Shown here piece after piece: positions 20,451 to 56,626 of a DNA stretch of 64,000 nucleotides (positions within the stretch are counted from its first letter, which is position 1; each line of letters starts with the position of its first letter). A program made the translations under genes and the position numbers. Under the pieces are notes generated by a model. The model was not told where the DNA came from. It searched no databases and saw only the letters and a program-made list of their open reading frames with translations. Origin of the DNA: a virus; IMG/VR virus record IMGVR_UViG_3300025941_000001, positions 1 to 64,000 of that record; one strand, written 5' to 3'.

Positions 20451-20453
20451 GGG

Positions 20454-23101: not shown

Positions 23102-23394
23102 AAACACTTCTCCGCTTTCCTGATGACCCAGCGTGGGAGCTTCAACTCCACGGCCTTGGCGCGAGCCTCGGCTTCGGAGTGCGATTGCAGATATGCCTTG
23201 AGCATCCCGCACATCTCGTTGCACGGAGGCCACGCGGAGGACATGGCTTCATATCGGCCGGAGCCGTAGCAAGCCCAGATGTCTTCCTCGGCGTGAACCT
23301 TCGTCGCCGCAAACGCGAGCAGCGCAGCGAGCACAAGAAAAAGCGCCCACGGGAAGAGCGCTTTGATCTTCGGGTCGATGTCGCGATGGTTCAT
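23098..23394 (-). CDS. Exported/membrane-anchored small protein, 98 aa
   Basis: Hydrophobic N-terminal segment ([19 protein letters not shown]) then a Cys-containing domain ([22 protein letters not shown]) with five Cys in all. GGAGG just before ATG 23394. Coupled to gmd; role unknown. Confidence 0.65.
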
Positions 23395-32301: not shown

Positions 32302-34596
32302 TTACCCTACCCATGAAGGCTTGGAGCCTGCGGCCGAAGTCTGGCGCGAGACTGCATAGTTGGCGAGGTCGTCAATCGTGCTCTTCGGCCCACGCAAACC
32401 ATTGAAGGTGCGCTCGCCGATTGTCAGGTTAAGCGTGCTCGTCGGCCCGTTGCTCAGGCCGCCCGTGAGGCGCGACGGCGCAGCGACGCCGCCGCCCTGC
32501 GCGAAGCCGGGAAGCTGCATGTTGTTCAAGGCATGGAACAGCCCGGTGCCGTACTGTTGGACCGCCGCCGCCTTGATGACGAACTCGCCGCGCGACAGAC
32601 GCGCGAGAATGCTGTCGCTCGTGGTCGTGCCCGGCCCGTCGATGGGACCGCCGGTCGCATGCCCCTTGACATCGCCGCCTTCGCTGGGCGTGTTCGCCTG
32701 CCCGCTGCTCGGCAGTTTGATCGCGGTCGCGCGATCAATTGCCGCGAGGCCCTTGATGATCTGCCCGATGATCTCGACCACGGTGGTCAGGAATTTGATG
32801 ATCGCGTTGTCCTTGACCTTCTCCCACGCCTTACCCGCGATATCGACGATCTTTTCCCAGTTGGCGCGAAGAAGACCGACAGCGGTGATGACGAGACCGA
32901 CAGCCACAACCATAACGCCGATTGGCCCGGTCGCGAGAGTGATGGCGACGCCAATGCCGATGATGATGCCCTTGAGGATCGTAGCCTGCTCTACGACGCC
33001 GCCGCCGAACAGCTTCGCGAACCACGTCGCGGTATCTGCCAATGCCTTGACAGCCGCAGACAGTCCGGCTCCGAGGGCCGAGAGGCCGTCGATGAAGCCG
33101 TGAAGCAACCCGGTGTTACTCTCTATGCTATCGCGGAGCCCGTTCAAGAACACGGTGAATGCGGGGGCGATAGCGAGCGCGAACCTCTGCGACAGGATGC
33201 TTATGGTCAAGTTGAGATTGGCCAGCGCGCCCCGGAAATGTTCTAGGTCATCGCGGGCTTTCTTGGTATCGAGTTCTTTGGTCGCGGCGTTGAGGTGCTC
33301 CAGCGCCCCGGTGTTGTGCTCCAACACGTGCAGAATTTCAGATGCCGAAGCTCCGAGCGCCTGCATCGACGTGCCAGCGAGACGATTGACGATGGCCAAT
33401 CGCTGTTGCCGAGTGATCAGGTGGTCGGTGTCCGCCGCAAAAGTGCGGCTCAGTTGGATGAGCGTCTCGTACCCAAGCTTGTCTGGGTTCTTGTTGCCCT
33501 CTTTTGCCTGAGCGATGATCGCGTTGGTCAAGTGCTGGACGGAAACCTCAGCCAGATTGACAGACTTGGCGGCCTCCTTGTTGCCCGCGACGATACCATC
33601 AAGCGCATCACGGATGCTGGCAATATTGGAAAGAGCGACCTTCTCCGCCCTTTGCTCCGCCTCAGCGCGTTGAATGATCGCTTCCTTGACGGCGTTCTGA
33701 TCTTTGATACGCTGCTCGATGTCTTCGCGCGCATTCTTCGCGGCGCGACGAGCGAGGTCCTCCACGTCTTGTTCAAGCTGACGCTGCTTGAGTGAAGCCT
33801 GCGCGGCCTTCTCTTGCTGGGCCAGACGAGCGTCGGCCTCGGCCTTGCGCGCGGTATCGACCGCTTGCTGGGCCTGAGCGATGGCGAGACTTTCCTTCTC
33901 GGAAGCCGAGGGAGGCGTGCCCTTGGCAGTGGCGAGAGCCTGCACGGCAGACAACACGCCCAACTCCGCGCCGCGCACGGACTGGGCCGCGCCGAGTTGT
34001 TCGGACGCGGCGTGCTGGGCGGCGAAGGTCAGCTTGATGTACGCGGCTTCGAGCGCGTTGCTGTCGCGCGACATCTGCGCGAAACGTTCGGACGAGTTCT
34101 CGCTCAGGGCGGTTTGCGCCTCGCGCACACGCTGGATAGCGGTCGAGACGCGCAGCGTCGCCGCGTCATTCTCGGTCGCGTAGGTCTTGATGCTCTCGGC
34201 GATCTGTGGCCACTCACGCGCGATGGTGATCGTGAGACGATTGGCGAACCGCTCAAACTGCTCGACCTTGACGCCTGCGCCTGCGAACGTGGCTTCGATA
34301 TCTTGAAGCTGGCCAGCGGTCACGCCGAATGCGTCGGCGAGCAACGCGGTCTTCTGGGTCAATTCGGTTTGCTCTTCGATGAACTGGGTCGTCGCGGCGG
34401 TCACGCCAGAGATGACTTTCTCCAGCCCACTAAGAGCAAGTCCGGCGAGCGCGAACGAGGTCGCGCCCTTCTCGAATGCCGAGGTGAGCTTCTCAAAGCT
34501 CTCAGCGCCTTCCTCGCCAATCTTCTTGATCGACGAGATGAACTCGGTGTCGCCTTTGAGCAGAATTTCTGCGATAAGTGGATCAAGCTCAGCCAT
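32302..34596 (-). CDS. Tape measure protein, 764 aa
   Basis: Long helical protein with central coiled coil (Ala/Glu/Lys/Gln-rich, residues about 170-320), hydrophobic stretches (ILKGIIIGIGVAITLATGPI, VMVVAVGLVITAVGLL) and the typical C-terminus GGPIDGPGTTTSDSILARLS, GEFVIKAAAV. Length sets the tail at roughly 110-115 nm by the usual 1.5 A per residue. Follows the tail-assembly chaperones with one gene between. Confidence 0.9.
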   Translation of the reverse strand: MAELDPLIAEILLKGDTEFISSIKKIGEEGAESFEKLTSAFEKGATSFALAGLALSGLEKVISGVTAATTQFIEEQTELTQKTALLADAFGVTAGQLQDIEATFAGAGVKVEQFERFANRLTITIAREWPQIAESIKTYATENDAATLRVSTAIQRVREAQTALSENSSERFAQMSRDSNALEAAYIKLTFAAQHAASEQLGAAQSVRGAELGVLSAVQALATAKGTPPSASEKESLAIAQAQQAVDTARKAEADARLAQQEKAAQASLKQRQLEQDVEDLARRAAKNAREDIEQRIKDQNAVKEAIIQRAEAEQRAEKVALSNIASIRDALDGIVAGNKEAAKSVNLAEVSVQHLTNAIIAQAKEGNKNPDKLGYETLIQLSRTFAADTDHLITRQQRLAIVNRLAGTSMQALGASASEILHVLEHNTGALEHLNAATKELDTKKARDDLEHFRGALANLNLTISILSQRFALAIAPAFTVFLNGLRDSIESNTGLLHGFIDGLSALGAGLSAAVKALADTATWFAKLFGGGVVEQATILKGIIIGIGVAITLATGPIGVMVVAVGLVITAVGLLRANWEKIVDIAGKAWEKVKDNAIIKFLTTVVEIIGQIIKGLAAIDRATAIKLPSSGQANTPSEGGDVKGHATGGPIDGPGTTTSDSILARLSRGEFVIKAAAVQQYGTGLFHALNNMQLPGFAQGGGVAAPSRLTGGLSNGPTSTLNLTIGERTFNGLRGPKSTIDDLANYAVSRQTSAAGSKPSWVG

Positions 34597-36188: not shown

Positions 36189-36758
36189 TTAGAAGGCAAC
36201 CGAGGGCGAGTTCGGCAGCGAGACGGTCGCCGTGCCGAAGGTTCCGGCCGCTTGGTCGAACAGAACGTCACCTTCGAGTTCGATGACGCCCCACGTGTTG
36301 GCGATCAGGCCGAGGGCCTTCGAGGGCGACAGCTTGACGAGCGGGAACTCCACGGTCCAGATGGGGCCGATGTCGTTGGTGCCGACGAACTTGACCGCCC
36401 CGTAAATGACCGGGTTGGAGAAGATGTCGATCACGTCCGGGGTCGGAGACGGCCCGCCGGTCGGAAGACCGAGCAGCGCGAAGCCCATGTTGCGCGCGGT
36501 CATCTCTTCGAGTTGCATGTTGAGCGTACCAGCGAGTTCGATGACGGCGGTGAAGTCCTTCACGCGCACGCCGGTCCGGCTGGAGAAGTGGTCGAGTTGC
36601 GTGACCTTCGCCAAGAACTCAAACTGCGGGACGTTGCCGCAATCGACGAAGGCGGTCTCGCCGAGCAACTTGATGCTGACGATGCCCTTGCCGATGTAAT
36701 AGTTGCCGATGTTCGGGCTAACAAGGGAGCCGGGGATGTGTTCGTTTCCAATGGGCAT
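36189..36758 (-). CDS. Major tail (tube) protein, 189 aa
   Basis: Beta-rich, Gly/Thr/Val-rich, no long helices except LEEMTARNMGFALLG. Order with connectors upstream and chaperones and tape measure downstream is the standard place for the tail tube protein. Starts with GGAGAG before ATG. Confidence 0.75.
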   Translation of the reverse strand: MPIGNEHIPGSLVSPNIGNYYIGKGIVSIKLLGETAFVDCGNVPQFEFLAKVTQLDHFSSRTGVRVKDFTAVIELAGTLNMQLEEMTARNMGFALLGLPTGGPSPTPDVIDIFSNPVIYGAVKFVGTNDIGPIWTVEFPLVKLSPSKALGLIANTWGVIELEGDVLFDQAAGTFGTATVSLPNSPSVAF

Positions 36759-37692: not shown

Positions 37693-38598
37693 TTACCGGA
37701 TGACCGTCCGGCTGCCGCCCTGACTGAGCAGTCCGGCCTTCGAGAGGATGCGGTCCACGTGCGGGAACGAAGCGAAGAAGCCGAGCCCGAACTTCGTATC
37801 GTAGGAGACGATGGTTTCGAGAGGGCCGACTTTCTTGGTGACAGACGAGGCCACGCCGCCATTGCCGACGAGGGCCGGGTCGTAGTCAGGCTGGAGATTG
37901 ACGCCGTTGAGCACGCGAATGGCAAGCTCCGAACACGCGGCTTTGAGCGCCCTCGGAATGCCGTTGACCGTGTTCCCGTTGAGGTCCACGAGACCCTGAC
38001 GCGGAAACTCGGTGCTCTGATTTGTCGTGCTGGAAACGAGGAACGGGCTGGAGATCAGCGCGTAGGGCGTAAGCCATCCTTCGAGGAAGTAGGCGTTCGC
38101 GCCGGGCAACACGCTGCCCATGCTCTGGAGACGCTTGACGCCGCCGAACCGATACTTCTGATCAAGGTAGTCGGTGCTTTGCACGATGGCGGCTTGGATG
38201 GCCGTGTCGGTCACAGCCGGGATGGAGTTGCCCCGGCTATCGTGATACTGCCGAAACTCGTCGATGGTCTCGTAGGCGTTGGCCGCGTTGATCTCGATGA
38301 CGAGCGACTGCTCGCCGACGTTCGCGCCGGTCTGCCATGTGATCGTGCCGTTCGCAGGCCAATCGGCCATATTGGCGTTCGGGGCTGTGACGGAAAATTC
38401 GCTCGCGCTGAGAACCTGACAGACGGTGAACGTCAACGACTGAAACGTCTCGTTGGAGAAGCCATCTTGATTGTTGAAGACGCCCTCATAGAGCCCGGTG
38501 TCTCCGACTTCAATGGGCGCGATGACCGGCGACGGCGACGGCAACAACGTGAGTTGCGCCACGGTGCCGGTTTCGTTTTGGACGGAGAAGACGGCCAT
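37693..38598 (-). CDS. Head-tail connector with DnaT_2-like domain, 301 aa
   Basis: C-terminal 190 residues match the pattern of the phage DnaT_2-like family: AYETIDEFRQYHDSRG, STDYLDQKYRFGG, FPRQGLVDLNG, GIPRALKAACSELA. The N-terminal 105 residues are an extra beta domain. In many phages this gene lies right after the capsid gene and acts in head completion rather than DNA binding. Confidence 0.7.
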   Translation of the reverse strand: MAVFSVQNETGTVAQLTLLPSPSPVIAPIEVGDTGLYEGVFNNQDGFSNETFQSLTFTVCQVLSASEFSVTAPNANMADWPANGTITWQTGANVGEQSLVIEINAANAYETIDEFRQYHDSRGNSIPAVTDTAIQAAIVQSTDYLDQKYRFGGVKRLQSMGSVLPGANAYFLEGWLTPYALISSPFLVSSTTNQSTEFPRQGLVDLNGNTVNGIPRALKAACSELAIRVLNGVNLQPDYDPALVGNGGVASSVTKKVGPLETIVSYDTKFGLGFFASFPHVDRILSKAGLLSQGGSRTVIR

Positions 38599-40274: not shown

Positions 40275-41372
40275 TTAGCTCTCGCGGGTGATCAGGCGAG
40301 CCAGCTTGATCTGCTTGCGCTCCGGGAACACTCGGACCCACGAGTTGGAATGGGCGAGGTTGTTCGTGGTCGCGGCGTTGGTCGGGCCACCTTCGGTCGC
40401 CGGGCTGCCGACGTAGGCATGACCGACCGGATGGATACACCACTCGACGCGGTTGTAGAGCGTATCGCTGCCCGCGCCGTTACCACGGTCCGGGTTGCGG
40501 AAGACTTCGGTCGGGACGATGGGCGTACCCACGCCGAGACGGAACGAGGCAGGGCCGACCAGCCACGTATGGTAGATGCCTGCGGCGGTCTGCGCGCCGT
40601 TGGAAGCATCGCCCGCCGGGTTGGGCATACCGTCGTCCACGATCACGCGGCGGCCGAGGAAGGTCGGAATGTTGACCTTGCCTTCGCTATCCGGGATGAA
40701 GTCGATCAGGTTGTTCTTCTGGGCGGTGGAGTACACGATGGAGTGCATGAACACTGCCGTCACGTCCTCGGCCGCGTCGCCGAGCAGGGTCGCGGTGTCG
40801 ATGAACGCCGACGCCGAGAAGTTGGTCACGCCAGCCGTGAAGCTGGAGCCCTTGATATCGTGGGTCAGGTCGTTCTGATGACCGTAGGCGGCATTGATGC
40901 CAAGCTGGCCGGAGCGACCGAGGGTCGGGTCGGCAAGCGCGTTGTTGGCGAAGATGCCGTTGGCGACCGCGACGAACGCACGCTGCAACCGGCGGACCCA
41001 GTAGTCGGACACGCGGCTCGCGATGCTCTGCATCGGGTCGGACCCGGCCAGAGCGGTCGCCAGACGCATCGTGCTCCACGAGGCGTTACGGCTCAGACGA
41101 ACCGCGACTTCGGCGGAGGTCTGGGTGATGTTCGGGGTCGAAGACGTGTTCGGGTCATCGCTCGACACGTTCTCGGCGGGGTCGCCGATGTCCTGCCAAG
41201 ACGGGACCGTGAAGGTCAGGCCGCCGCCAGCGAGCAGGTTGTCGAGGAAGTCATCACGCGCGGCGACGCCGCTCTGGATGATCGCGGTCTTCTCCATCGT
41301 CAACTGTTGGGTATACGGCGTGAAGACGGCGGGGACGATAACGTCGCTGATCTGGGTGGACACGTTGACCAT
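40275..41372 (-). CDS. Major capsid (coat) protein, 365 aa
   Basis: Start 41372 (MVNVSTQISDVIVPAVFTPY) with GGAG upstream. Matches a coat-protein family of tailed phages by LLAGGGLTFTVPSW, ENVSSDDPNTSSTP, VRLSRNASWSTM and SRVSDYWVRR. Own promoter 130 bp upstream and a strong terminator behind it give it an independent, high-level transcript, as expected for the shell protein. Confidence 0.88.
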   Translation of the reverse strand: MVNVSTQISDVIVPAVFTPYTQQLTMEKTAIIQSGVAARDDFLDNLLAGGGLTFTVPSWQDIGDPAENVSSDDPNTSSTPNITQTSAEVAVRLSRNASWSTMRLATALAGSDPMQSIASRVSDYWVRRLQRAFVAVANGIFANNALADPTLGRSGQLGINAAYGHQNDLTHDIKGSSFTAGVTNFSASAFIDTATLLGDAAEDVTAVFMHSIVYSTAQKNNLIDFIPDSEGKVNIPTFLGRRVIVDDGMPNPAGDASNGAQTAAGIYHTWLVGPASFRLGVGTPIVPTEVFRNPDRGNGAGSDTLYNRVEWCIHPVGHAYVGSPATEGGPTNAATTNNLAHSNSWVRVFPERKQIKLARLITRES

Positions 41373-41500
41373 GATAATCTCCGATGGCTTGTGGGGTGGA
41401 AGCTTTTTCAAGCACCTCCCCATGGAGGTATCTTGGCTGATGCTGATGGGGTCACGACTGCCCTGCATAGGGGCGCGAAGCCATTGCAAATTCTGGCGTG

Positions 41501-44956: not shown

Positions 44957-45820
44957 TTACGCCGCGTCAGCGGCGGGCTTAGTTGCGCCGATAAACGACC
45001 CGGCTTGCGCCGCGATCTCGCCAGCTTTCACTTCGCCAAGCTGACGCACGAGCGCGCCCTGCTTGGTCATGTTCCAGCCTGCCTTCGACCATGGGTTGTT
45101 CGACCCGCCGTAAGTGCCCTTCGGTCCGCCGCCTCCGCCGGAGCCGCCGCCGACCGATGCAGGCCACCAATGCGGTGCCTTCTCGACCATGTCGCGGAGC
45201 CATTCCTTGGGGGTCAGGCCCGGGACGGTGCCGGGGACATCCTTGGTGATGATGCGCCCGTCCTCGGTCTTCTCGAAGATGCGGGAGCCGCGCAGAACCA
45301 CGTCGTCGAGGGCGGTGACTTGCACCTTCTCGGCCACGGCAGCATCACGGACAGTGCGCTCGATGCTGTCCATGGTGATGGAGCCTTTGAGGTTGGTGAC
45401 TTCGCCATCCTTCTCCATGACGAGCTTTTTCTGTGCGTCGAGTTGACGCTCCAGATTGGACTTGTCGCGCTCCAGCGGAGCGACAGCCTGCTTGACGCGG
45501 GCCGCGATGATCGGCTCAAGCTTCTCTTGGTCGAGGTGACCATCCTTGTTGATGGCTTCGAGTTGAGCCTTCACAGTTTCAAGCTCGTTGGCCTGAGCGT
45601 GGAAAGCCTCGGCGTCAACGCCATCGAACGAAGCGAGTGCGGTCTTCGTCGCCTTGTGGTCGGCCTTTTCCTTGCGGAGGGCTTCCTGCACGCGCTCGAC
45701 ATCCGCTTGCGTCTTCACGCCTTGGATGCCGGTCAACTCCCACTTGCCGTTGCGTTCCGTATAGAGGTCCGCATAGCCCTCCGGAATGTCTTCGGCGGTA
45801 TCATAGATTGTCTTCAACAT
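44957..45820 (-). CDS. Scaffolding-like protein, 287 aa
   Basis: Residues about 35-150 form a charged coiled coil (VERVQEALRKEKADHKATK), followed by a Gly-rich linker and a C-terminal helix-turn-helix-like unit beginning NPWSKAGWN. Location just upstream of the capsid gene fits a scaffold that binds the coat protein through its C-terminus. No protease is obvious nearby. Confidence 0.65.
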   Translation of the reverse strand: MLKTIYDTAEDIPEGYADLYTERNGKWELTGIQGVKTQADVERVQEALRKEKADHKATKTALASFDGVDAEAFHAQANELETVKAQLEAINKDGHLDQEKLEPIIAARVKQAVAPLERDKSNLERQLDAQKKLVMEKDGEVTNLKGSITMDSIERTVRDAAVAEKVQVTALDDVVLRGSRIFEKTEDGRIITKDVPGTVPGLTPKEWLRDMVEKAPHWWPASVGGGSGGGGGPKGTYGGSNNPWSKAGWNMTKQGALVRQLGEVKAGEIAAQAGSFIGATKPAADAA

Positions 45821-45849: not shown

Positions 45850-46191
45850 TCATTCCGATGAGGACCCGGCCATCCGGGATTTGCGTTTGTGGAGCAATCC
45901 TTTGCCGAGGCGAAGGATATGCTGCCGGGTGATCTCCGTCGCGCCGTTGGCTCCGTTCAAGCGACGAGAACCGATGACGCGATGGGCGATATCAGTGTTG
46001 TCCTCGCCAGCGGTGAGGCCAACACTAATTGCGGTATGGATGCGCTCGGCATCCTGAGCAGCGATGTTGCGCGCCCAGTGCGCAAGCTCGTGCCCGTGTA
46101 TCTTGAGCACCTTCTTTTTGCCGGTGCGGAAGCGATGCTTGTCCCACGCGCCGCCGTCGTGCTCGTGATCTCCAATCTCTGGGTCGCTCAT
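45850..46191 (-). CDS. MuF/gp7-like head morphogenesis domain, 113 aa
   Basis: AAQDAERIHTAISVGLTAGE, then IAHRVIGSRRLNG and TRQHILRLGKG match the C-terminal part of SPP1 gp7/Mu gpF-type minor head proteins. Much shorter than the usual 250+ residues, so probably a stand-alone domain. It also contains HGHELAHWAR, an HExxH-like motif that may be chance. ATGA overlap with 46188-47177. Confidence 0.55.
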   Translation of the reverse strand: MSDPEIGDHEHDGGAWDKHRFRTGKKKVLKIHGHELAHWARNIAAQDAERIHTAISVGLTAGEDNTDIAHRVIGSRRLNGANGATEITRQHILRLGKGLLHKRKSRMAGSSSE

Positions 46192-47177
46192 TTGCGTCCC
46201 TCATTCTCGGTCCAGTCCGGCATCAGCCCGATCTTCTGCGGCGCGAAGACCGTGTGCTCGGCGTCGGCGGTTCGGTTAGTTGCGCCGTGCGGGCCGTAGT
46301 TGACCCATGAGTTCTGTCCGCGCGTCTCCGATGTCATCGCTTTGCGCGCGAGGTCCGAATACATCGAGGCGTGAGAGCGCCAAGCGTTCTCTTCTCCCTC
46401 GGCGCGAAAACCATTGCCTTCTTTCAAGTGCCCCATCATGTCGTGCACGATGCGGAAAACGTCGTTGACGACCACGTGCCTGCCGTCGATCACTTCGCCG
46501 GTCGGCCGGAGCATCGGGTTCGTCTCGGCCTTGTCGTTGCTCTTGTCGGTCTTGTTGCCGTAGCCGAGGTCCGTGGGAAAGCCCCACCAATGATTGTTCT
46601 CGCTCACATCCATCGCCGCGAGACGCGGCGAGAGCGCATAGGGGTCCTTCTGTCCGGGCTTGACCCACTCGACCTTGAGCCCGGTCTGCTTGATCACGTC
46701 CCACTGAGCGAGCGTCTCTTTCGCCATCGCCTCGTAGCTGGCCTTGACCTCGGGGTTGTTCGGGTCATCCTTCATCTTGTCGTATTCGTCGGCGATCTTC
46801 GCGGCGCGCTCTTTGTCGAGCTTCGCGTACTCGGTCGGCGGCGAGTACGGCATCCCGGCCTTGTCCATGTAGGCCTTCGCCGCGTCGCGGAGCCGACCGA
46901 TGGGACCGGGGACGTACCACTGATCGCCCAGTTGAATAGGCTTTTGCGGCAGTCCGACGAGCGGCTTCGCGCCCGCTGCAACTTTCTCCGCCTGCGCCTG
47001 CGCTTCCTCGGGCGTGCTCGCGCCCGCGTGCGCGGCCGGACCGATGGGTCGCTGTTCCGGCGGGTGCATCGGCTGTTGCGTGACAGCCGCGCTCGCTGCC
47101 GCTACGCCCTTGAGCGGAACGTCTTGCGTGCCGAACTCGCCGTGGTTGTTGCGAGCCTGTGCGGGGTTATATGTCAC
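46188..47177 (-). CDS. Head-region protein with polyvalent-type conserved domain, 329 aa
   Basis: From residue about 100 the protein has a conserved set FRIVHDMMGHLKEGNGF, GEENAWRSHASM and TETRGQNSWVNYG, with His, Asp and Glu that look like an active or metal site. I have the impression of this pattern in phage head-operon and polyvalent proteins, with no known activity. N-terminal 90 residues disordered, Ala/Pro/Gln-rich. Between portal and scaffold: candidate injected or internal head protein. Confidence 0.55.
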   Translation of the reverse strand: MTYNPAQARNNHGEFGTQDVPLKGVAAASAAVTQQPMHPPEQRPIGPAAHAGASTPEEAQAQAEKVAAGAKPLVGLPQKPIQLGDQWYVPGPIGRLRDAAKAYMDKAGMPYSPPTEYAKLDKERAAKIADEYDKMKDDPNNPEVKASYEAMAKETLAQWDVIKQTGLKVEWVKPGQKDPYALSPRLAAMDVSENNHWWGFPTDLGYGNKTDKSNDKAETNPMLRPTGEVIDGRHVVVNDVFRIVHDMMGHLKEGNGFRAEGEENAWRSHASMYSDLARKAMTSETRGQNSWVNYGPHGATNRTADAEHTVFAPQKIGLMPDWTENEGRK

Positions 47178-47418
47178 TGGGCAGATGCTCTCTCAAATGG
47201 CGAAACGCCGCCTTGATGTGATGATGGCGGAGCGCAACGATCTTTTTCGTCAACTCGTCTCGGGTCAGCATGGCATCGCTGACCTTTGTTCGATTGACGC
47301 CCGCCACGTCCATCAAGTTCGTCTCGATGAGGTCGCGAATTTGCGGTTCGCAACCATCAAGGATGTCGATGGCCTCGTGAAAGGTCTTTACGATGTGCGC
47401 TCCGGCCGGATCACTCAT
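47167..47418 (-). CDS. Small helical protein, 83 aa
   Basis: Helical throughout (IVKTFHEAIDILDGCEPQIRDL). ATGA overlap with the portal stop and 11-nt overlap with the next gene. Often such small helical proteins sit between portal and head genes; role unknown. Confidence 0.55.
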   Translation of the reverse strand: MSDPAGAHIVKTFHEAIDILDGCEPQIRDLIETNLMDVAGVNRTKVSDAMLTRDELTKKIVALRHHHIKAAFRHLREHLPSDI

Positions 47419-49130
47419 GCGCCGCCTTTGGTCTTCCCGGCCGACGCGCCCTTCTTGCCGACCTTGCGCTTCAACGGAACAGGTGACCCACGCGTATGGC
47501 CCTTTGGACTTTGACTGTTCGGTTTGATCGGAACGTTCGAATTGGGAGGCGCAGTCGATGCAGGCCCAGCCGGAGGTGCAGTACCGGCGGGAGGTGCAGT
47601 GGCTCCGGGCGTGCCCGCAGCCGGATCAGAGATAGGGTCGTTGCCCTCATCCAAGAATGTATCATCGGTGACAGACTGTTGGAACGGCCCAACCATCGTG
47701 CCGAGCATCGACGCGGCTTCCTCTTCGATCTGTGCGTTCTCTTCTTCAAAATCCATCTCCGTCATGTCGTTAAGCTTCATCATGCGGTGCATAGAACGAA
47801 GAGACAGGGGCAGGCCCAGTTGCTTCGCTTGCATGAAGGCAAGCAGAGCAGCGCCAGCGACAGTCTGATCGGCGAAGTCGGTCGTCGGTTTGACACTGAC
47901 TTCATCCGGGTCTTCTCCAACCCACTCGGCCGCGTACTTGAGCGCTCGCTCAAGCCCGGCTCCGGCGGCCTTCGCCACGGACGAGATCGTGGTCGTGCGC
48001 GCCGCCAGTCGAATGCGGAGCGCCTCGCCGCTCTGGCCAGTGTCAGTGCCGACATCCAAAAACGCGTTGCCCTCTTGGGCCGCGCGCATCTTGTCGTTCT
48101 CCAGCGATTGACGCATCTCGCCGAGACCGGCGGCCGAAACGCCGATGTACTTCGCGTCGCCGCCGATGCGGAGGTCGATCACGCCCTTGTTGCCGACGCG
48201 CAGAGTGTTGGGCGCGGCTTCATCGACGTTGCCGCCGATGATGACGAGGGTGTTCTGGCCCTGCAAGTAGAGCGTCTGCCGGTAGTCGGCTTCGCCGCGA
48301 TAGATCGCGAGCGACAGGTTCGACAGGCCGAGCAATGGGGAAATCTCGGGCTCGGGCACGAGATCGTTCGCGCCGATGAAGACGAACGGGATTTCGTCGA
48401 GCGTCTTGCCCGCGATGCTAGGATAGATGAAATCCGTGAGTTGCGGCATGTTCGTGTCATTGACCTTTACGGCGACGCCGAACGGCGCGCCCGGGGGCGG
48501 ACGCTCCCATCCGCTATCAAGCTCCGCCTGTCCGCCACGAGTGAGGACGCGGTACTTGCGCTCGGTCTTCCACGTGAAGCCCTCACGCCGATAGCCGCTC
48601 TCGTCGAGCACGACGAGTTCAAGCTCTTGCATGCCTTCGTCCAGTTTCCCCGCGTCCCAGTTGATGATGCGCTCGGGATTGTAGAACGAAATGTAGGGAG
48701 TTGCCTTGTCGGCATCGACGCCCTGCGGCGTATCGACAAGCAGGCCGCAGCGCCCGTAGACGAGTTGCGCGACGTTGATCCTGCGGAGCAACGCTTGCAA
48801 ACCTTCGCCCTGCACGGTCGCCTTCGTCATCATGTCTTCGAGTTTCTTCGGCAGCACGATCTCGGCGGGCTTGTTGTGCATGATGCCGACCATGGCTTTG
48901 ACGGCATCCTTGACCACGTCATGGTAGTAGGCGCGCAACAGATACGCCTCGTAGTCTTTCCAGCCGGGGGAGGTCGGCGTCGTCATCCCGTCCTGCACCA
49001 TGCCCTCGGTCGCCGGGAGATAATCGAGACGCTTCGATTTCACCGCGCGCTCGCCCGCGTAGGTGTCGCTCATCTGTATCCATTCGCCGAGCCGCTCGAC
49101 GTATTCGGGATGCTTGTCCGGGAGTGCCAT
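47415..49130 (-). CDS. Portal protein (DUF4055), 571 aa
   Basis: Matches DUF4055 portals by overall plan: N-terminal LRAYYHDVVKDAVKAMVGIM, YGRCGLLVDTP, EIPFVFIGANDLV, SPLLGLSNLSLAIYRGEADY, and the C-terminal helix with AGAALLAFMQAKQLGLP. Pro/Ala/Gly-rich disordered tail. Forms the dodecameric DNA channel. Follows terminase. Confidence 0.88.
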   Translation of the reverse strand: MALPDKHPEYVERLGEWIQMSDTYAGERAVKSKRLDYLPATEGMVQDGMTTPTSPGWKDYEAYLLRAYYHDVVKDAVKAMVGIMHNKPAEIVLPKKLEDMMTKATVQGEGLQALLRRINVAQLVYGRCGLLVDTPQGVDADKATPYISFYNPERIINWDAGKLDEGMQELELVVLDESGYRREGFTWKTERKYRVLTRGGQAELDSGWERPPPGAPFGVAVKVNDTNMPQLTDFIYPSIAGKTLDEIPFVFIGANDLVPEPEISPLLGLSNLSLAIYRGEADYRQTLYLQGQNTLVIIGGNVDEAAPNTLRVGNKGVIDLRIGGDAKYIGVSAAGLGEMRQSLENDKMRAAQEGNAFLDVGTDTGQSGEALRIRLAARTTTISSVAKAAGAGLERALKYAAEWVGEDPDEVSVKPTTDFADQTVAGAALLAFMQAKQLGLPLSLRSMHRMMKLNDMTEMDFEEENAQIEEEAASMLGTMVGPFQQSVTDDTFLDEGNDPISDPAAGTPGATAPPAGTAPPAGPASTAPPNSNVPIKPNSQSPKGHTRGSPVPLKRKVGKKGASAGKTKGGA

Positions 49131-49199: not shown

Positions 49200-50795
49200 T
49201 TAAGCGCCTGTGCGTCCGGACTTCATAGTCCGAACCTCGAAGCGGAGCATGTATCGCGTTTCGTCGCCGTTATGATCTTCGCTCTCGTCGTCAACGTCGT
49301 CGATCTTCAACTCGTCACGCGGGAGGACAGGGACGCAACGAAGCCATTGAGGGCATTCGGTGGTGATGAACAGGCCGGGCGTTTCCCGGAAGCCGCCCGG
49401 GGGCCGCTTGGTCGCCTTGAGGGCTTTACGGATTTGCTCCCATCCCTGCTCACGCGAGCCCGCGCCCTTGTCGGCGCGTTCCCAGAAAATGCCGCGATGC
49501 TTGACGCCGTTGATCGTGACCGGCTTCTCGAAGTCGTTCGCGATGGTGACCTCGGAGCCGTTCGTGTTGTCGTCGAAGATTTGCGTGTCGGCCGGGCCGC
49601 GCGAGACGCGGGTCCACGATGCATCGGCTGCGCGCAGGCCCCACTTGATCTCGCGCTCGATGATGCCCTTCGCGATGTCGGGGATGAGCATGCGCGAGCC
49701 TTCGTTCGCGACGCCGCGCCAGCCGTACCATTCCTTGAACCGAAACTTGTCGCCGCGCAGGGTCGAGCGCACGCGTCCATCGCGAAGCTTGAGATCGGTG
49801 CCGTCGCTGACAGCGTACCAGCCGACCGAGAACGGCTTCGACGAACCGTGGTCGTATGCGCGATAGATTTTCCAGCCCGCCGGAATGTCGAACGGCTCCA
49901 TGACGACCGTGTCGCGATATTCATACCAGATGTCGTCGAACATGCCGCCCGCGACGATGTCCCACGACCCATCGAGCCACGCTGCCTTTTCCGATGCGTT
50001 GCGCGCAGCGGCGGCGATACGGCCTTTGTACTCGGGGTCGGCGTGCAAGAGCAATTGGTTCTCGTCGAGATACCCGTGGATGGCGCGACGCGGCGGTTCC
50101 TTGTTGCCCTCGGCGTCAATATCTCCGACGATGAGCGGACCGACGCACGGACGCGTGCCGTTCGGCCCCATCTCGCCGTTGATCGGCAGCCGCCAGCGCG
50201 CCTTGACCCAGTTGTGGCCGACGCCGTATGGGTTCGTCGTCGCACGGATTTTGCGCGGCATGCCCTTGATGGTCGAACGCGAGCACGAGAACATGCTCTT
50301 GTAGCAATCCGGGTTCGGCCAGTTGGTCAACTCTTCCCAACCAATCCACGGATAAGCGTGGCCGTGGTAGTTGTCGTAGTCGCTGCGAACGTTGAAGTGC
50401 GCGAAGTAGAGACGCTCGCCCGTGGGCCACTCCCACATCGTCTTCACTTCGTTGTAAATCGCATCGGGCCAGATGCGCTTGATCCATTTCTTCGACTTCT
50501 CGATGATGTCGCGCAACTGCGGATGGGTCTGACGGAAGAGGATGCCTTTCCATTCCGCGCCGTGGCCTTTACCGATCTCTTGACAGAAATCCATGATGAG
50601 CGCGTCGGTCTTGCCCGGGCCGCGCGTACCCTCGTAGAGAACCTCGACAGTCGGATCAGCGAGAAAGAACGTTTGCGAGCCGGGTTGGGGAGCCCAAGCG
50701 ACTTGCTTCAACACGCCGTTAGCGTCCCGCACATACGGGACGTACTCGCCGTTGATCGACTTGAAAGTCTCGACTGATCCGGTAAGCTCAAACAT
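49200..50795 (-). CDS. Terminase large subunit, 531 aa
   Basis: Walker A GTRGPGKT (residues 56-63), Walker B region WIGWEELTNW (150-159), coupling segment, and an RNase H-like nuclease domain with IYRAYDHGSSKPFSVGW in which Asp is metal-binding. Packages DNA with the small subunit encoded just upstream (8-nt overlap). Confidence 0.92.
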   Translation of the reverse strand: MFELTGSVETFKSINGEYVPYVRDANGVLKQVAWAPQPGSQTFFLADPTVEVLYEGTRGPGKTDALIMDFCQEIGKGHGAEWKGILFRQTHPQLRDIIEKSKKWIKRIWPDAIYNEVKTMWEWPTGERLYFAHFNVRSDYDNYHGHAYPWIGWEELTNWPNPDCYKSMFSCSRSTIKGMPRKIRATTNPYGVGHNWVKARWRLPINGEMGPNGTRPCVGPLIVGDIDAEGNKEPPRRAIHGYLDENQLLLHADPEYKGRIAAAARNASEKAAWLDGSWDIVAGGMFDDIWYEYRDTVVMEPFDIPAGWKIYRAYDHGSSKPFSVGWYAVSDGTDLKLRDGRVRSTLRGDKFRFKEWYGWRGVANEGSRMLIPDIAKGIIEREIKWGLRAADASWTRVSRGPADTQIFDDNTNGSEVTIANDFEKPVTINGVKHRGIFWERADKGAGSREQGWEQIRKALKATKRPPGGFRETPGLFITTECPQWLRCVPVLPRDELKIDDVDDESEDHNGDETRYMLRFEVRTMKSGRTGA

Positions 50796-51588
50796 CGTCG
50801 TCGCCGCCCTCTTCGAATGTCACGGTCGGACGCCCGGTCTTGCGGTAGTTGCTCTCGATTTCGTTGAGGTCGGTAGCCGCAATCGTTCGCATCGGGACCA
50901 CGAGCACGCCGCCGCGCACGTTGACATCGACGCTGGCCTTGTTGCCATAGGTCTTCGACATGCGGGTCTTGAGGATGAACATCGCAAGGTCCGGGTCCAT
51001 CTTGTAGACAGTCTCCGGAACGGGAGCGCCGAACTCGTCGGTGAGATAGTTATCCGGGACAAGCTCGGGCAAGCCGAGATCGCGCGCATCCGCGAGCTTC
51101 TTTGGGTCGTACTTGTATTGCACACGTCCCTGATAGACGAGCGTCTCGTCGTAGCCGGTCGCGCGCTTGATCGTCGCAGCCTCGACCTTCTGGACGCCCG
51201 CCTCCATGGCGATGTCCCACGCTTCATGGAAGCGCACGGTGTTGTCGTCGGTGCCATTCTCGTCGTCGTCGCCCATGACGATGTCGAAGCCATCCCCCGG
51301 TGCGCCTTCGAATGATTTCTGGAGCCAATATTTCAACGTCGTGTAGTTGATGCCGAGCCGACGCGCGACATCAGCGCCGACCGGCATTTCGGTCGCGTAG
51401 CTCAGCGCACGGTTGAGGCGTTCGGGGGTGTTCTTGCGGGCTGCGCGATTGACAGGGTAAGATCGCGAGCGCTCTAGGACGGCTTTGCCTGATCGGTCGA
51501 GGGGCACTGCGCCGTCAAGTAGGTTCTCTTCGGGCTCGGCGACCGGGTCGGGGCCAAGCATCTCATCAAGCTCTTTGTCGCCGCTCAT
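50788..51588 (-). CDS. Terminase small subunit, 266 aa
   Basis: Start 51588 (MSGDKELDEMLGPDPVAEPE) with GAGAGGAA upstream. N-terminal HTH: GADVARRLGINYTTLKYWLQ. Then a helical oligomerisation region (HEAWDIAMEAGVQKVEAATI) and a tail ending EEGGDDDV that may contact the large subunit. Recognises the packaging site; palindromes 40-97 bp upstream are candidates. Confidence 0.8.
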   Translation of the reverse strand: MSGDKELDEMLGPDPVAEPEENLLDGAVPLDRSGKAVLERSRSYPVNRAARKNTPERLNRALSYATEMPVGADVARRLGINYTTLKYWLQKSFEGAPGDGFDIVMGDDDENGTDDNTVRFHEAWDIAMEAGVQKVEAATIKRATGYDETLVYQGRVQYKYDPKKLADARDLGLPELVPDNYLTDEFGAPVPETVYKMDPDLAMFILKTRMSKTYGNKASVDVNVRGGVLVVPMRTIAATDLNEIESNYRKTGRPTVTFEEGGDDDV

Positions 51589-52837: not shown

Positions 52838-52848
52838 CTAGCATGTTC

Positions 52849-53046
52849 TCAGCACGCGCTTATCGGGGATGTCGGCCCCATCGGGCCTGTCGTAGGCGGT
52901 CCGTTCGCTCCCGGAGCCGCTCCCGTGCCCGGGCTGCCCGGAAGGACCGGAGCAGGGTCGCGAAGGGGCGCACGCTGGCTTTTAGGATGGCCATTGGCCA
53001 GCGCTCGCGCCGCGTCGTCGTTGTCAACAGTGATCGGGTTTGCCAT
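52849..53046 (-). CDS. Pro/Gly-rich small protein, 65 aa
   Basis: Begins MANPITVDNDDAARAL and continues as Pro/Gly/Ala collagen-like low complexity (GSPGTGAAPGANGPP). Ends before the 52.8k promoter. Disordered; unknown role. Confidence 0.5.
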   Translation of the reverse strand: MANPITVDNDDAARALANGHPKSQRAPLRDPAPVLPGSPGTGAAPGANGPPTTGPMGPTSPISAC

Positions 53047-53049
53047 CGG

Positions 53050-53499
53050 TTACTCCCCCGTGCCGCCTGTCCGGATTTCTTTTCCATGCTTGACATCCCA
53101 GATGGCGATTTGGTTGTGCTTGCGGCCAGTGTTGACGGCCTCACGCTTGCTTCTGATGTTGTGGGATACGTCGAGATATGTTTTGCCGGTTTCCTTGTCG
53201 GTCCAGCCGCCGATGTGCGCTCGTGGATCACGCAACACGTCGGCGTGCGCGTTGGCATATTGCGAGATGATTTCGTGGCCCTGCGGACCGCTCAGCGCCT
53301 TCTCGGAAACGATTTGCGTGTGGCCGGGTATCGAAACCATAAAGCCGTTCGACGGCATGCGCCCGTTCGTCGGTCGAACCGAGAAGCCGCCGGGGTTGCC
53401 GGTGACAGTCTTGATCACGCTGGGATGGAGCGGGAGCTTGCCGATTTTGGCGACGCCCGAGTTGTGGGCGTTGGAGCCGTGGCCGAGTGCGTCTTTCAT
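53050..53499 (-). CDS. MKDALGHGSN-tagged protein 8 (polyvalent-type domain), 149 aa
   Basis: N-terminal tag MKDALGHGSNAH, then a distinct domain: GGFSVRPTNGRMPSNGFMVS, ADVLRDPRAHIGGW, GKTYLDVSHNI, NQIAIWDVKHGKEI. I recall similar segments in phage polyvalent proteins, with no known activity. Last of the eight tagged genes in transcription order. Confidence 0.75.
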   Translation of the reverse strand: MKDALGHGSNAHNSGVAKIGKLPLHPSVIKTVTGNPGGFSVRPTNGRMPSNGFMVSIPGHTQIVSEKALSGPQGHEIISQYANAHADVLRDPRAHIGGWTDKETGKTYLDVSHNIRSKREAVNTGRKHNQIAIWDVKHGKEIRTGGTGE

Positions 53500-53500
53500 G

Positions 53501-53833
53501 TCAGAGCCATTTCGATTTCTTGATGGGATGTTCGTTGCCTTGGTAACGTTTGCGCGCCTCGCGCTCGTCGATCAGCGAGCGGAGGTGCGCGGTATTGGCG
53601 CGATACTCATCGAAGATCGGATGGCCGGTCATTTGCATGATCTCGTTGCCCTTGACCATGCCGTGACCCATGTCGATGAGCTTGCTGTTGATCTCGCTGC
53701 TCTTCGCCTGCGCCTTCTCATACGCCTTGAGCAGGGCAGCACGCGGCAACTCCGAAATAGGTTTCGGCTTGCGCGGCAACGTCTCGATGCCAGTGTTGTG
53801 CGCGTTGGAGCCGTGACCGAGCGCGTCCTTCAT
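53501..53833 (-). CDS. MKDALGHGSN-tagged protein 7, 110 aa
   Basis: Tag MKDALGHGSNAHNTG, Pro/Lys-rich linker, then helices (RAALLKAYEKAQAKSSEINS). Ends in basic residues (HPIKKSKWL). ATGA overlap with its upstream neighbour. Body unrelated to the other tagged proteins. Confidence 0.75.
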   Translation of the reverse strand: MKDALGHGSNAHNTGIETLPRKPKPISELPRAALLKAYEKAQAKSSEINSKLIDMGHGMVKGNEIMQMTGHPIFDEYRANTAHLRSLIDEREARKRYQGNEHPIKKSKWL

Positions 53834-54120
53834 TTGAACCCCCGACGAGCGTCGCGATCTGTCTTCATCTCTTTCTTGAAATTCTTGACCATGAACCCAT
53901 TGTGATCTCGGAGCGCGGAGACAGCCCGATCAAGATTGGCCTTCTCCATCCGGTATTCGGTTGAGGTTCTGATGTGCTCCGGCGGCAGCCCCAAGGGGCC
54001 TCTTGGGTACTTATCCATGGCACGAGCATGCTGCTCAACGGTCGCGGTCAGGCCCGCGTTGTGCGCGCGATGGAATGCATAGTCATGGGCATTGCTGCCG
54101 TGGCCGAGAGCGTCCTTCAT
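53830..54120 (-). CDS. MKDALGHGSN-tagged protein 6, 96 aa
   Basis: Tag MKDALGHGSNAHDYAFHRAH, then helices (TATVEQHARAMDKY, MEKANLDRAVSALRDHNGFM) and a basic end (KEMKTDRDARRGFK). Overlaps its neighbours by 4 nt at both ends. Confidence 0.75.
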   Translation of the reverse strand: MKDALGHGSNAHDYAFHRAHNAGLTATVEQHARAMDKYPRGPLGLPPEHIRTSTEYRMEKANLDRAVSALRDHNGFMVKNFKKEMKTDRDARRGFK

Positions 54121-54353
54121 TTGATCCTCACACGCGAGTTGGGATTGTCAACGCGATGAAACTGGGCGATCTTCTCGGCGACAGCGCGACGGCGCGAGCC
54201 GCCGACCTTCTGCCAGATGTTGCCCGAGGTCGTGACCTTCTGCCCGGCCGCCGTGACGCCGTGGAAAGCGATGTGCTTCTCGACCTTGAACTGATGGCGC
54301 GGCGACTTGAAAGCTCCGCGTCCGTTGCTGCCGTGTCCGAGTGGGTCTTTCAT
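54117..54353 (-). CDS. MKDALGHGSN-tagged protein 5, 78 aa
   Basis: Tag variant MKDPLGHGSNGRG, then a beta-then-helix unit (FKVEKHIAFHGVTAAGQKVT; SRRRAVAEKIAQFHRV). Very basic. Coupled both ways. Confidence 0.75.
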   Translation of the reverse strand: MKDPLGHGSNGRGAFKSPRHQFKVEKHIAFHGVTAAGQKVTTSGNIWQKVGGSRRRAVAEKIAQFHRVDNPNSRVRIK

Positions 54354-54589
54354 GGCGTCCTCTTCATGCTGTTATAGCCCCGCTCCCACTCCGCCGCAAG
54401 TGCCCCGTCATTTGGGGTTAACAATTCGTTGTGCGGGTTCTCCGCCGGACGCCCGAGCCGCCGGGCCTCGCGTCCCTTGTAGAAGGCGATCTCCAGCGGG
54501 GACATGGACGGCGTCGGCGTGAACTTCGAATGCGGCACCAAAATGGAAACGCCGACCGAGTGGGTCGGCTTTGGAAATCGTTGGGCCAT
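54350..54589 (-). CDS. Untagged protein within the tagged array, 79 aa
   Basis: MAQRFPKPTHSVGVSILVPH, followed by IAFYKGREARRLGRPAENPH and AAEWERGYNSM. The pattern YxxGxExxxxG...N-P...W..GY resembles ribosome-modulation-factor-like phage proteins; weak. Coupled by one-base overlap to 54589-55077. Confidence 0.6.
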   Translation of the reverse strand: MAQRFPKPTHSVGVSILVPHSKFTPTPSMSPLEIAFYKGREARRLGRPAENPHNELLTPNDGALAAEWERGYNSMKRTP

Positions 54590-55077
54590 TAGCGCCCCTT
54601 GAGCAGCCGGTGGATTGCACTTGCTTCCTTACCGCCGATACGCCGCCCGCTGCGGTTCGACGAAGCAATGGCCTTGTTGACCGCGTCGGGGCTGTAACCA
54701 TGACGACCGAGCGTGCTGTCCGGAGACGGGTTGCTCGGCCGCATGGTCGGGCCTGTGCCCTTCGACGCACCGTAATCGTGCATGCTGTCGTGGATTGGGG
54801 CCGGTGCCGACTTCGGTCCGCTCGCGAGCGAGGCCTTTGCGTCCTGATCGGCGTAGCGCTGCAACTGGAACTGGGCGGTCGCGTGAGCGTCGGCGATGTC
54901 GTCCGTGTGACTGTCGGCCTTCGATTGATAGACGCCGTTGTGGAAAAATTTAACGACCTTCTCGCCCCACTCCGGGTTGTTGTAGACCTTCGCCGAGTGC
55001 GGTCCGTTGACATGCGTCTTGATCAGACGCATTCCCCTCGTGCCCGTGTCGCTGCCGTGGCCCTTTGCGTCCTTCAT
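54589..55077 (-). CDS. MKDALGHGSN-tagged protein 4, 162 aa
   Basis: Tag variant MKDAKGHGSDTG. Body has a small beta region (RLIKTHVNGPHSAKVYNNPE), a middle linker, and the C-terminal helix GYSPDAVNKAIASSNRSGRR. Ends HRLLKGR. Confidence 0.75.
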   Translation of the reverse strand: MKDAKGHGSDTGTRGMRLIKTHVNGPHSAKVYNNPEWGEKVVKFFHNGVYQSKADSHTDDIADAHATAQFQLQRYADQDAKASLASGPKSAPAPIHDSMHDYGASKGTGPTMRPSNPSPDSTLGRHGYSPDAVNKAIASSNRSGRRIGGKEASAIHRLLKGR

Positions 55078-55146
55078 GATCAGTCCTCGTTGTTGAGATC
55101 GCCCGCAGACAACGAGCCATGGTAGCGTGTAGCCGCTGCGCTCTTG

Positions 55147-55620
55147 TCACTTGTTGTGATACCGGATATCGAACCCGTGTTGGTATGAGGTGGACACGCT
55201 CCGAGCTTTTGGATGCTTCGCGAAAGCCTCGGCTGCCGCCGCTTCGCGAGTGGCGTGCGGGCCGTACTCGCCGAGCTTGGAGCCGTTCTTCGACGAGACC
55301 CGAGCATATAGCGGGCGAACGCCGCTCGCTACCATGCTGTCGTGCGTCGGAGCCGGGTCCGATTTCGGGGTGCCGCTGTGAAGCTGATCCGCTGGCGCGT
55401 CCGACTTGCCGCCGCGCGCCCGATACGCGAGCACGGTCGAGGCGTCGTTGACTTGGTCCGCGTACTTGTTGATGCCGCGCTGATCGCCCATCTCTTGCGC
55501 GTTGCGACCGGCCTCGTGAGCATCCCGTTGGATGTAACGAAGCTCATCGTTCGTCTTCGCGTGATAGGCGTGACCCGGAATTGGTCGCGCGTTGGAGCCG
55601 TGTCCCAGTGCGTCCTTCAT
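55147..55620 (-). CDS. MKDAL tag protein 3, 157 aa
   Basis: Tag MKDALGHGSNARPIPGH. Residues about 25-70 form a helical domain (DELRYIQRDAHEAGRNAQEM, NKYADQVNDASTVL) seen in other phage or bacterial proteins of unknown function. The C-terminal 60 residues are a beta domain (RPLYARVSSKNGSKLGEYGP). A 66-bp gap to 55077 has no clear gene. Confidence 0.75.
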   Translation of the reverse strand: MKDALGHGSNARPIPGHAYHAKTNDELRYIQRDAHEAGRNAQEMGDQRGINKYADQVNDASTVLAYRARGGKSDAPADQLHSGTPKSDPAPTHDSMVASGVRPLYARVSSKNGSKLGEYGPHATREAAAAEAFAKHPKARSVSTSYQHGFDIRYHNK

Positions 55621-56027
55621 GACTTGAACTTTCCAAGACCGCCTGCGAAGTGTCCGCCATTGAACCGAGGCGCGGGCGACTTCTTGGTGCTCATGGTCAT
55701 CCCGGTGTTGGATGACGCTGCACGATACTTGCCCAGTTGCTTCGAGGTGTTGATTTTGGTGATCTCGCGCGTGGACTTGTTCTTGTAGCTCGTGTTCGGC
55801 TGCGATGCCTTCACGAACAGGTCGCGTCGAAATCCCGGATTGGTCGTTGCAAGGTGATTGGCCATGGCCTCGACGCGAGCGTCGTGCCCGGCCGGATCAT
55901 TGACAGCCTTGGAGCGGAGGTCGGCGGCGATCTGCTCGAAGTGACGCCGACCGAGCTTGGCCGGGAGCGCCTTGATCATCGCCGAATGAACTCCGGCGTC
56001 GGAGCCGTGGCCGAGTGCGTCTTTCAT
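55617..56027 (-). CDS. MKDAL tag protein 2, 136 aa
   Basis: Tag MKDALGHGSDAGVH, a helical domain (RRHFEQIAADLRSKAVND, ARVEAMANHLATTNPG) and a basic disordered tail (KSPAPRFNGGHFAGGLGKFK). 4-nt overlap with protein 3. Confidence 0.75.
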   Translation of the reverse strand: MKDALGHGSDAGVHSAMIKALPAKLGRRHFEQIAADLRSKAVNDPAGHDARVEAMANHLATTNPGFRRDLFVKASQPNTSYKNKSTREITKINTSKQLGKYRAASSNTGMTMSTKKSPAPRFNGGHFAGGLGKFKS

Positions 56028-56030
56028 GGT

Positions 56031-56306
56031 TCACATTCCTTTGCGGCCGACTTCGCCATTGCGAATGCGCGTGACGAGGTTGCGATTGTACTCGCGTTCT
56101 GGAGATCGATCATTCCACGTCTGGAGCGGGGCCTTGATCATCGTTTTGCCCATCGCGCTCATGAGCGCTGCGCTTGCCGAGGCGTTCGACGACTGCGGGA
56201 TGCCGCCGCCCTTGAGCGAGGTCACGTGCGTCAATCGCGCCCTGAGCGCATCGAGCATTGCGCCGTCGCCGGAGCCGTTGCTCCCGTGGCCGAGTGCATC
56301 CTTCAT
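56031..56306 (-). CDS. MKDAL tag protein 1, 91 aa
   Basis: Tag MKDALGHGSNGSGDG, then helices (AMLDALRARLTHVTSLKGGG; SASAALMSAMGKTMIKA) and a basic end (LVTRIRNGEVGRKGM). First of the tagged set in transcription order. Confidence 0.75.
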   Translation of the reverse strand: MKDALGHGSNGSGDGAMLDALRARLTHVTSLKGGGIPQSSNASASAALMSAMGKTMIKAPLQTWNDRSPEREYNRNLVTRIRNGEVGRKGM

Positions 56307-56318
56307 CGGAGGGCTCCG

Positions 56319-56558
56319 TCAGACGTTGTGGTAGGTGCTGTCGTGCTTGCCGAGAACGGCGTCGGCCTTGTGCCTGATCTTCGCGGCCTGCTCGGGGGAC
56401 AGCTTGCCTTTCGCGACCATCTGGGTCGCACGGGCCTTGGCGTTCGCGGCATGCGATGGGTCGTTGACCGGGTACTTCCCGGGCTGGCCCTTCTTGCCGG
56501 GCAGCGCGAATTTTCCCTTGGGCAGCGCGTTGCGTTTCTTGGCTGTGAGTTTGGCCAT
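56319..56558 (-). CDS. DUF6582-like basic protein, 79 aa
   Basis: Start 56558. RNALPKGKFALPGKKGQPGK then YPVNDPSHAANAKARATQM matches the family pattern lP...FAlPg..KYPi.D..HA.nA.aR. Found in many phages and bacteria without known function. Preceded by a GCTAG-family promoter. Confidence 0.7.
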   Translation of the reverse strand: MAKLTAKKRNALPKGKFALPGKKGQPGKYPVNDPSHAANAKARATQMVAKGKLSPEQAAKIRHKADAVLGKHDSTYHNV

Positions 56559-56619: not shown

Positions 56620-56626
56620 CTAGCAA

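Follow-up and report, generated by a model that had tools for sequence, protein, structure and literature searches.

We analyzed bases 1-64000 (the window) of a 93,824-base IMG/VR virus record, IMGVR_UViG_3300025941_000001, in which a run of small minus-strand genes at 53050-56306 lies just upstream of both terminase genes and shares their reading direction. Eight of the nine consecutive genes in this run encode proteins that begin with MKDALGHGS[ND] or a close variant (hereafter the tag), as claimed in a first-pass annotation of this DNA; all eight reading frames are present, and only 54350-54589, the ninth gene, lacks the tag. Scanning all six frames of the window with up to three substitutions allowed revealed no further real copy of the tag. 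The genes of the run are as follows, with protein lengths in amino acids (aa):

53050..53499, minus strand: tagged gene 1 (149 aa), MKDALGHGSN followed by a body referred to here as the X domain, which matches positions 299-398 of phrog_3170 (E 5.8e-11)
53501..53833, minus strand: tagged gene 2 (110 aa), with a body lacking convincing relatives (DUF2852 matched only below threshold)
53830..54120, minus strand: tagged gene 3 (96 aa), matching phrog_7560 (E 1.1e-9), with untagged relatives in RB43 and Stenotrophomonas phage RAS14
54117..54353, minus strand: tagged gene 4 (78 aa, net charge +12), whose body cluster comprises 15 tagged proteins
54350..54589, minus strand: untagged ninth gene (79 aa), ribosome-modulation-factor-like (PF04957 RMF, 29.3 bits, above the gathering score), with homologues in 21 related loci
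54589..55077, minus strand: tagged gene 5 (162 aa), MKDAKGHGSD followed by a phrog_7884-type body (E 2.6e-14), a KS motif (described below) and an IHRLL C-terminal module
55147..55620, minus strand: tagged gene 6 (157 aa), with an internal KS motif
55617..56027, minus strand: tagged gene 7 (136 aa, net charge +14), beginning MKDALGHGSD
56031..56306, minus strand: tagged gene 8 (91 aa), the first of the tagged run

Mean pairwise amino acid identity among the eight window copies is 0.91 over residues 1-10, compared with 0.12 over residues 11-20. Within the window, serine in the tag is encoded by both AGC and TCC, and glycine and leucine by several codons, in agreement with the earlier claim that tag codons differ between copies, and the 232 relatives described below use both AGY and TCN serine codons, several leucine codons, and all four glycine codons. 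Therefore, it is the protein sequence rather than the DNA that is under conservation. The ATGA overlaps that had been reported between adjoining genes are found at 53830-53833, 54117-54120, 54350-54353, and 55617-55620.

Searching IMG/VR with a DNA pattern for MKDxxGHGS[ND] returned 79 stretches from 63 contigs that encode 232 distinct tagged proteins, which are small (~60-205 aa). Six-frame translation of these stretches gave 304 tag occurrences, 295 of them directly after M-K or M-x-K; the search pattern selected for the M-K class but not for M-x-K or alternative starts. Nearly all of the remaining nine follow an alternative start, and none is clearly internal. When the tag was searched without its start codon in 25 whole records, 130 matches were obtained versus 0 in the reversed control, while a relaxed pattern, M(x)[KR][DEN]xxGxx[ST], identified 230 GHGS, 3 GRGS, and 2 other forms in 1.28 Mb of tag-bearing contigs and no match in 0.70 Mb of control contigs. 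Because both the relaxed-pattern and reversed-pattern controls came out empty, a chance origin of the recurrence is excluded. The consensus among the relatives is M-[x]-K-D-A-[KL]-G-H-G-S-[NDE]-x-[RH]-G-G, with high information content from the methionine up to roughly residue 13 and background levels from roughly residue 16 onward. Thus, the core of the ten-residue tag originally described stands, but its length needs extending to about residue 13 among the relatives. An HNH protein beginning MKDRLGHGSD (L067) was set aside as a probable coincidence, since it is the only copy on its contig, which lacks the group's portal.

The tags are on the portal's strand in all 18 records that hold the group's portal gene. 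A tag-blind search by portal protein recovered 38 loci, of which 27 extend 4.5 kb or more upstream of the portal; the tag lies upstream of the terminase in 25 of these 27 contigs, and the other two end before its usual place. Beyond this pre-terminase run, a tagged gene is found directly after the portal (L004:3997-4410, with a GRGS variant in L231), and tagged ADP-ribosyltransferase (ART) genes are found directly after the tape measure gene or the next gene (L052, 11427-12035 and 12496-12933; L063; L033). In GTDB, only two contigs from Hyphomicrobiales metagenome-assembled genomes (L083 and L084) match the tag; no relative of the window terminase was found in these genomes, which makes Hyphomicrobiales no more than tentative candidate hosts.

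The 232 bodies that follow the tag fall into 50 BLAST clusters. ART-PolyVal (PF18760) scored above its gathering threshold in three tagged proteins (L023:9086-9550, L052:12496-12930, and L063:9732-10187), and Pfam identified an Arr-type ART body in L048:3181-3627. Other Pfam families among the bodies include GNATs and a weak ParB_N match, and one further body group carries a HEIGH motif. Among 131 tagged proteins tallied by Pfam family, none matched MuF, and none of the tagged proteins that were scanned singly contained two unrelated domains. No cultured-phage relative was detected for the 54589-55077 body at E 1e-3 or for the ART body of L023 at E 1e-2. The annotation had described divergence after the tag as complete; identity does drop to background, but a KS motif (AAxALAxGxxKSxPxPxHxxM) recurs in 51 of the 232 tagged proteins and also in very small proteins without the tag encoded in the same operons. 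In the window, this motif is present in 52849-53046, 54589-55077, and 55147-55620.

As an aside on the 53830-54120 body, its untagged RB43 relative, ORF171c (L198), starts with MLTFEQYKTQ, which faintly resembles the T4 capsid-targeting sequence (CTS), MKTYQEFIAE. A single pattern search bearing on this possible CTS-like start returned just scattered matches.

The X domain of 53050-53499 corresponds to the C-terminal part of phrog_3170, while the 46188-47177 protein, encoded after the portal, corresponds to its middle part. Relatives of the X domain were found by tblastn and blastp (32-35% identity) in Synechococcus phage P60 gp34, mycobacteriophage ErnieJ gp101, and Rhodococcus phage E3 gp68. 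ErnieJ gp101 combines the X domain and the 46188-type domain in a single protein, whose gene lies between the major capsid and head-decoration genes, and in P60 gp34, an internal virion protein, the X domain is downstream of an ART-like YHAT segment. The 46188-47177 domain also occurs inside a "large polyvalent protein" of phage Pag-Yong1. Structure matches of the two domains in BFVD were to proteins named Zeta toxin, XkdF, ART-PolyVal-like, and head morphogenesis; no solved structure similar to the X domain was found in the PDB (best E 0.38), and a literature search found no P60 or mycobacteriophage Bxz1 virion proteome placing the homologues in virions.

The composition of the tagged proteins is distinctive: 94% are net positive, with a median of +4.65 per 100 aa and 0.04% cysteine, versus 55% net positive, +1.34 per 100 aa, and 0.74% cysteine for conserved untagged small genes in the same contigs (p 1e-12 and 2e-17, the comparison being made with the conserved tagged subset). 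T4 IPII and IPIII, measured alongside, have +4.0 and +4.7 per 100 aa, respectively, and no cysteine. The 46188-47177 protein is likewise cysteine-poor, the portal, capsid, and terminase proteins less so. This basic, cysteine-poor make-up fits residence in the head interior, though it is not unique to the tag.

An AlphaFold (AF2) model of 53050-53499, built with 19 relatives as input, gave predicted confidence (pLDDT) values below 50 for residues 1-18 and of about 90 or more for most remaining residues. Since AF2 leaves residues 1-18 disordered and the body folded, the tag of 53050-53499 is modeled as a flexible extension outside the body fold.

The run precedes the terminase, head, and tail genes; these and its other neighbors are listed here in the direction of reading:

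56620..56624, minus strand: GCTAG site, promoter-like by sequence, in the gap upstream of 56319-56558
56319..56558, minus strand: small, very basic conserved untagged gene (79 aa) preceding the tagged run, with homologues in 32 loci and +16.5 net charge per 100 aa
52849..53046, minus strand: small untagged gene with the second shared (KS) motif (ALANGHPKSQRAPLRD)
50788..51588, minus strand: small-terminase candidate downstream of the tagged run, adjoining TerL, with weak helix-turn-helix matches
49200..50795, minus strand: large terminase, assigned by sequence and position; its homologues adjoin the portal in related contigs
47415..49130, minus strand: portal protein (phrog_145, E 2e-108)
46188..47177, minus strand: post-portal protein with an N-terminal motif called tag-2 (VTYNPAQARNNHGEFGT), matching phrog_3170 positions 112-257
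45850-46191: basic, cysteine-free 113-aa protein between the 46188 gene and the scaffold, with no Pfam match
44957..45820, minus strand: head scaffolding protein (phrog_206, E 1.7e-37), a candidate partner of the tag
40275..41411, minus strand: major capsid protein (phrog_247, E 1.4e-100)
37693-38598, minus strand: head-tail adaptor
36189-36758, minus strand: major tail protein
32302..34596, minus strand: tape measure protein (phrog_3547 and others)

Judged by its genes, this phage has a real tail and a scaffold, since the scaffold, head-tail adaptor, major tail, and tape measure genes were all identified.

We consider it probable that the tag is an encapsidation/ejection address, a functional analogue of the T4 CTS. 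Under this reading, the eight small, basic, cysteine-free proteins would be expressed late, each with a flexible N-terminal address (core K-D-A-[KL]-G-H-G-S-[NDE]) that would bind some part of the head under assembly, with the scaffold and the portal's inner face as the likeliest partners. Binding would load each tagged protein into the procapsid, and the proteins would then be ejected with the DNA and act at once on the next host. The bodies would be interchangeable anti-host modules (ADP-ribosyltransferase, acetyltransferase, ParB-like, peptidase-like, and domains without an assigned activity); elsewhere such modules are fused to each other or to head proteins, and here the short tag would substitute for covalent fusion. 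The annotation had likewise proposed a shared address, an analogy to T4 internal proteins, and a polyvalent-type body for 53050-53499. All three proposals gain independent, if indirect, support because the bodies are of effector type, Rosetta-stone fusions link them to virion proteins, the genes neighbor head and tape measure genes, the proteins are basic and cysteine-free, and the tag is disordered on a folded body, leaving that interpretation partly supported.

Several observations weigh against an encapsidation address. Most bodies, including all eight in the window, have no assigned activity, and the untagged RB43 relatives of the 53830 body lie among small genes of unknown function rather than head genes. 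Some untagged neighbors are also basic and cysteine-poor, and the scaffold is cysteine-low as well. Furthermore, a 28-residue tag query matched no isolated phage among the 50,697 records of INPHARED, where a 22-residue T4 CTS query, used as a control, matched 310 records.

The closest parallel is with T4 IPI, IPII, and IPIII, in which an N-terminal sequence of about ten residues with an MK start precedes divergent small, basic, cysteine-free proteins (PMC3012670, PMC9391042). The T-even internal proteins form a diverse defense set in which only the CTS is conserved (PMC3012670), and their bodies counter host defenses (PMC3012670, PMC9391042). In contrast with the CTS, the tag reads KDAxGHGS rather than KTYQEF and has no sequence relation to MKTYQEFIAE; by sequence, then, the tag system is not a member of the T4 CTS family, and the analogy we propose is one of function. 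The present system further differs in having more tagged genes per genome and polyvalent-type enzyme bodies, and in belonging to a different, uncultivated group of soil phages.

The bodies also recall the polyvalent proteins of phages and conjugative elements, for which packaging and injection are predicted (Iyer et al. 2017, PMC5512222): ART-PolyVal, GNAT, ParB-like, and peptidase-like domains occur in both, as do genes near virion genes (PMC5512222). Whereas polyvalent proteins carry 2-15 domains per polypeptide (PMC5512222), the modules here are separate small tagged proteins, and we found no such tag described in the parts of Iyer et al. (PMC5512222) that we consulted. In MuF polymorphic toxins and portal/MuF-effector fusions, C-terminal effectors are delivered with the head, and their junction motif, NPxQPRDxxGRW, resembles the core of the tag. 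The tagged proteins, however, have no fused MuF or portal domain, and the short tag would be their sole address. Similarity to T7-like ejection proteins comes from P60 gp34, which holds the X domain of 53050-53499, although gp34 is a 1,639-residue ejection protein while the tagged protein has 149 residues and belongs to a phage with a tape measure and a major tail protein.

Alternatively, the tag could be a docking motif for an intracellular partner, such as an adaptor, a chaperone, a host protease, or a membrane site, with the proteins acting where they are expressed and never being packaged. A motif of this kind, short, disordered, and conserved at the N-terminus of folded but unrelated bodies, would be just as expected for intracellular docking, and the RMF-like neighbor could target host ribosomes. 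However, the tagged genes fit into the order of head and tail genes and share the strand of the head genes, which suits late rather than early action, their bodies occur elsewhere as domains within virion or head-fused proteins, and their composition resembles that of internal proteins. We therefore regard docking as unlikely.

A second alternative arises from the motifs at the start of post-portal genes. Genes just after the portal begin with tag-2, M-x-[FY]-[ND]-P-x-x-x-R-[DN]-x-x-G-[RKQE]-[WF] or a close form, and this RDxxGRW-type motif is borne by at least five unrelated post-portal bodies (46188-47177; L206, L214, L226, L227, L230, and others); 26 such proteins contain one cysteine in total. 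In a pattern search of IMG/VR, 67 of 82 copies of NPx[QE]PRDxxGRW were inside proteins, and the Pfam families most often matched among 58 open reading frames carrying it were MuF (10), ADP-ribosyltransferase (7), and Zeta toxin (5), closely followed by portal families. In unrelated phages, NPxQPRDxxGRW proteins (L093-L172) join MuF or portal domains to ART, Zeta toxin, PBECR2, Acb1-like, and InPase domains. The tag and the RDxxGRW motif have a [KR]DxxG[RH] core in common, and GRGS forms of the tag exist, making kinship between the two possible.

On this basis, the tag could be a junction remnant or processing site, with modules recombined at [KR]DxxG[RH] and the motif marking module boundaries or a protease site, as might be expected from the mostly internal position of NPxQPRDxxGRW in proteins that combine MuF or portal domains with ART, Zeta-toxin, PBECR, and other domains. 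The tag itself is essentially always N-terminal and never clearly internal among its 304 occurrences, its conservation at the protein level with free codon choice disfavors a DNA recombination site, and no prohead protease family was matched among the head genes scanned. These points leave a junction or processing site improbable. It is also conceivable, if rather doubtful, that a single, so far unrecognized address, [KR]-D-x-x-G-[RH]-[WFG]-[ST], commits phage proteins to the virion interior for injection and takes one form in the tag and another in the RDxxGRW motif found in MuF, portal, and polyvalent proteins. Were there such a widespread address, head-delivered effectors could be listed from this motif across tailed phages, irrespective of the body attached.

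Gene duplication, in which the eight genes would be paralogues diverged so far that only the tag stays conserved from a common domain, is largely refuted and very improbable. The genes are in tandem in one operon and short secondary motifs are common to some bodies, but the bodies come from unrelated families (ART, GNAT, ParB-like, and X domain), untagged relatives of them exist, and identity is at background straight after the tag. The annotation had itself named membership of one homologous domain as the outcome that would overturn its proposal; when tested, a single shared domain was ruled out by the unrelated bodies and the AF2 tag/body boundary, and codon variation likewise rules out DNA duplication or an RNA element. 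Least probable of all is a translation- or mRNA-level feature, such as a start-region enhancer or regulator site, which would suit the placement of the tag at the very 5' start of every gene but which is refuted, short of an RNA structure independent of the amino acids, by the free swapping of codons (AGY/TCN serine, several leucine, and four glycine codons) and the tolerance of an extra codon after ATG.

To our knowledge, phage-injected proteins are normally identified only through virion purification. If the tag is an encapsidation address, injected anti-host proteins could be listed from sequence, including those of phages that have never been grown, yielding many new anti-defense candidates. 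It would also mean that CTS-like delivery arose more than once and that a small, interchangeable tagged set can replace giant fused "polyvalent" effectors, and the ~13-residue tag could serve as a portable handle for loading phage heads.

Some further features of the window and its relatives were observed. The GCTAG-family site placed upstream of the run by the annotation is located at 56624 (minus), and more GCTAG sites lie just upstream of other minus-strand genes, at 52842, 49163, 44948, and 37682 (minus). These sites may be parts of phage promoters, because GCTAG seldom occurs elsewhere in the window, whose GC content is 61%. The sequence of the 45850-46191 protein bears a faint resemblance to the MuF core. 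At 18655-24976, the window holds a block of putative sugar-nucleotide/glycosyl-type genes, named from sequence only, that includes a GDP-mannose dehydratase-like start at 22079-23101. Lastly, the large terminase reading frames of two related loci (L219:2826-5459, 877 aa, and L233:1700-4324, 874 aa) are longer than the 531-aa terminase of the window, and in L233 the extra sequence, possibly an intein, starts at a Walker A-like motif (GTRGPGK).

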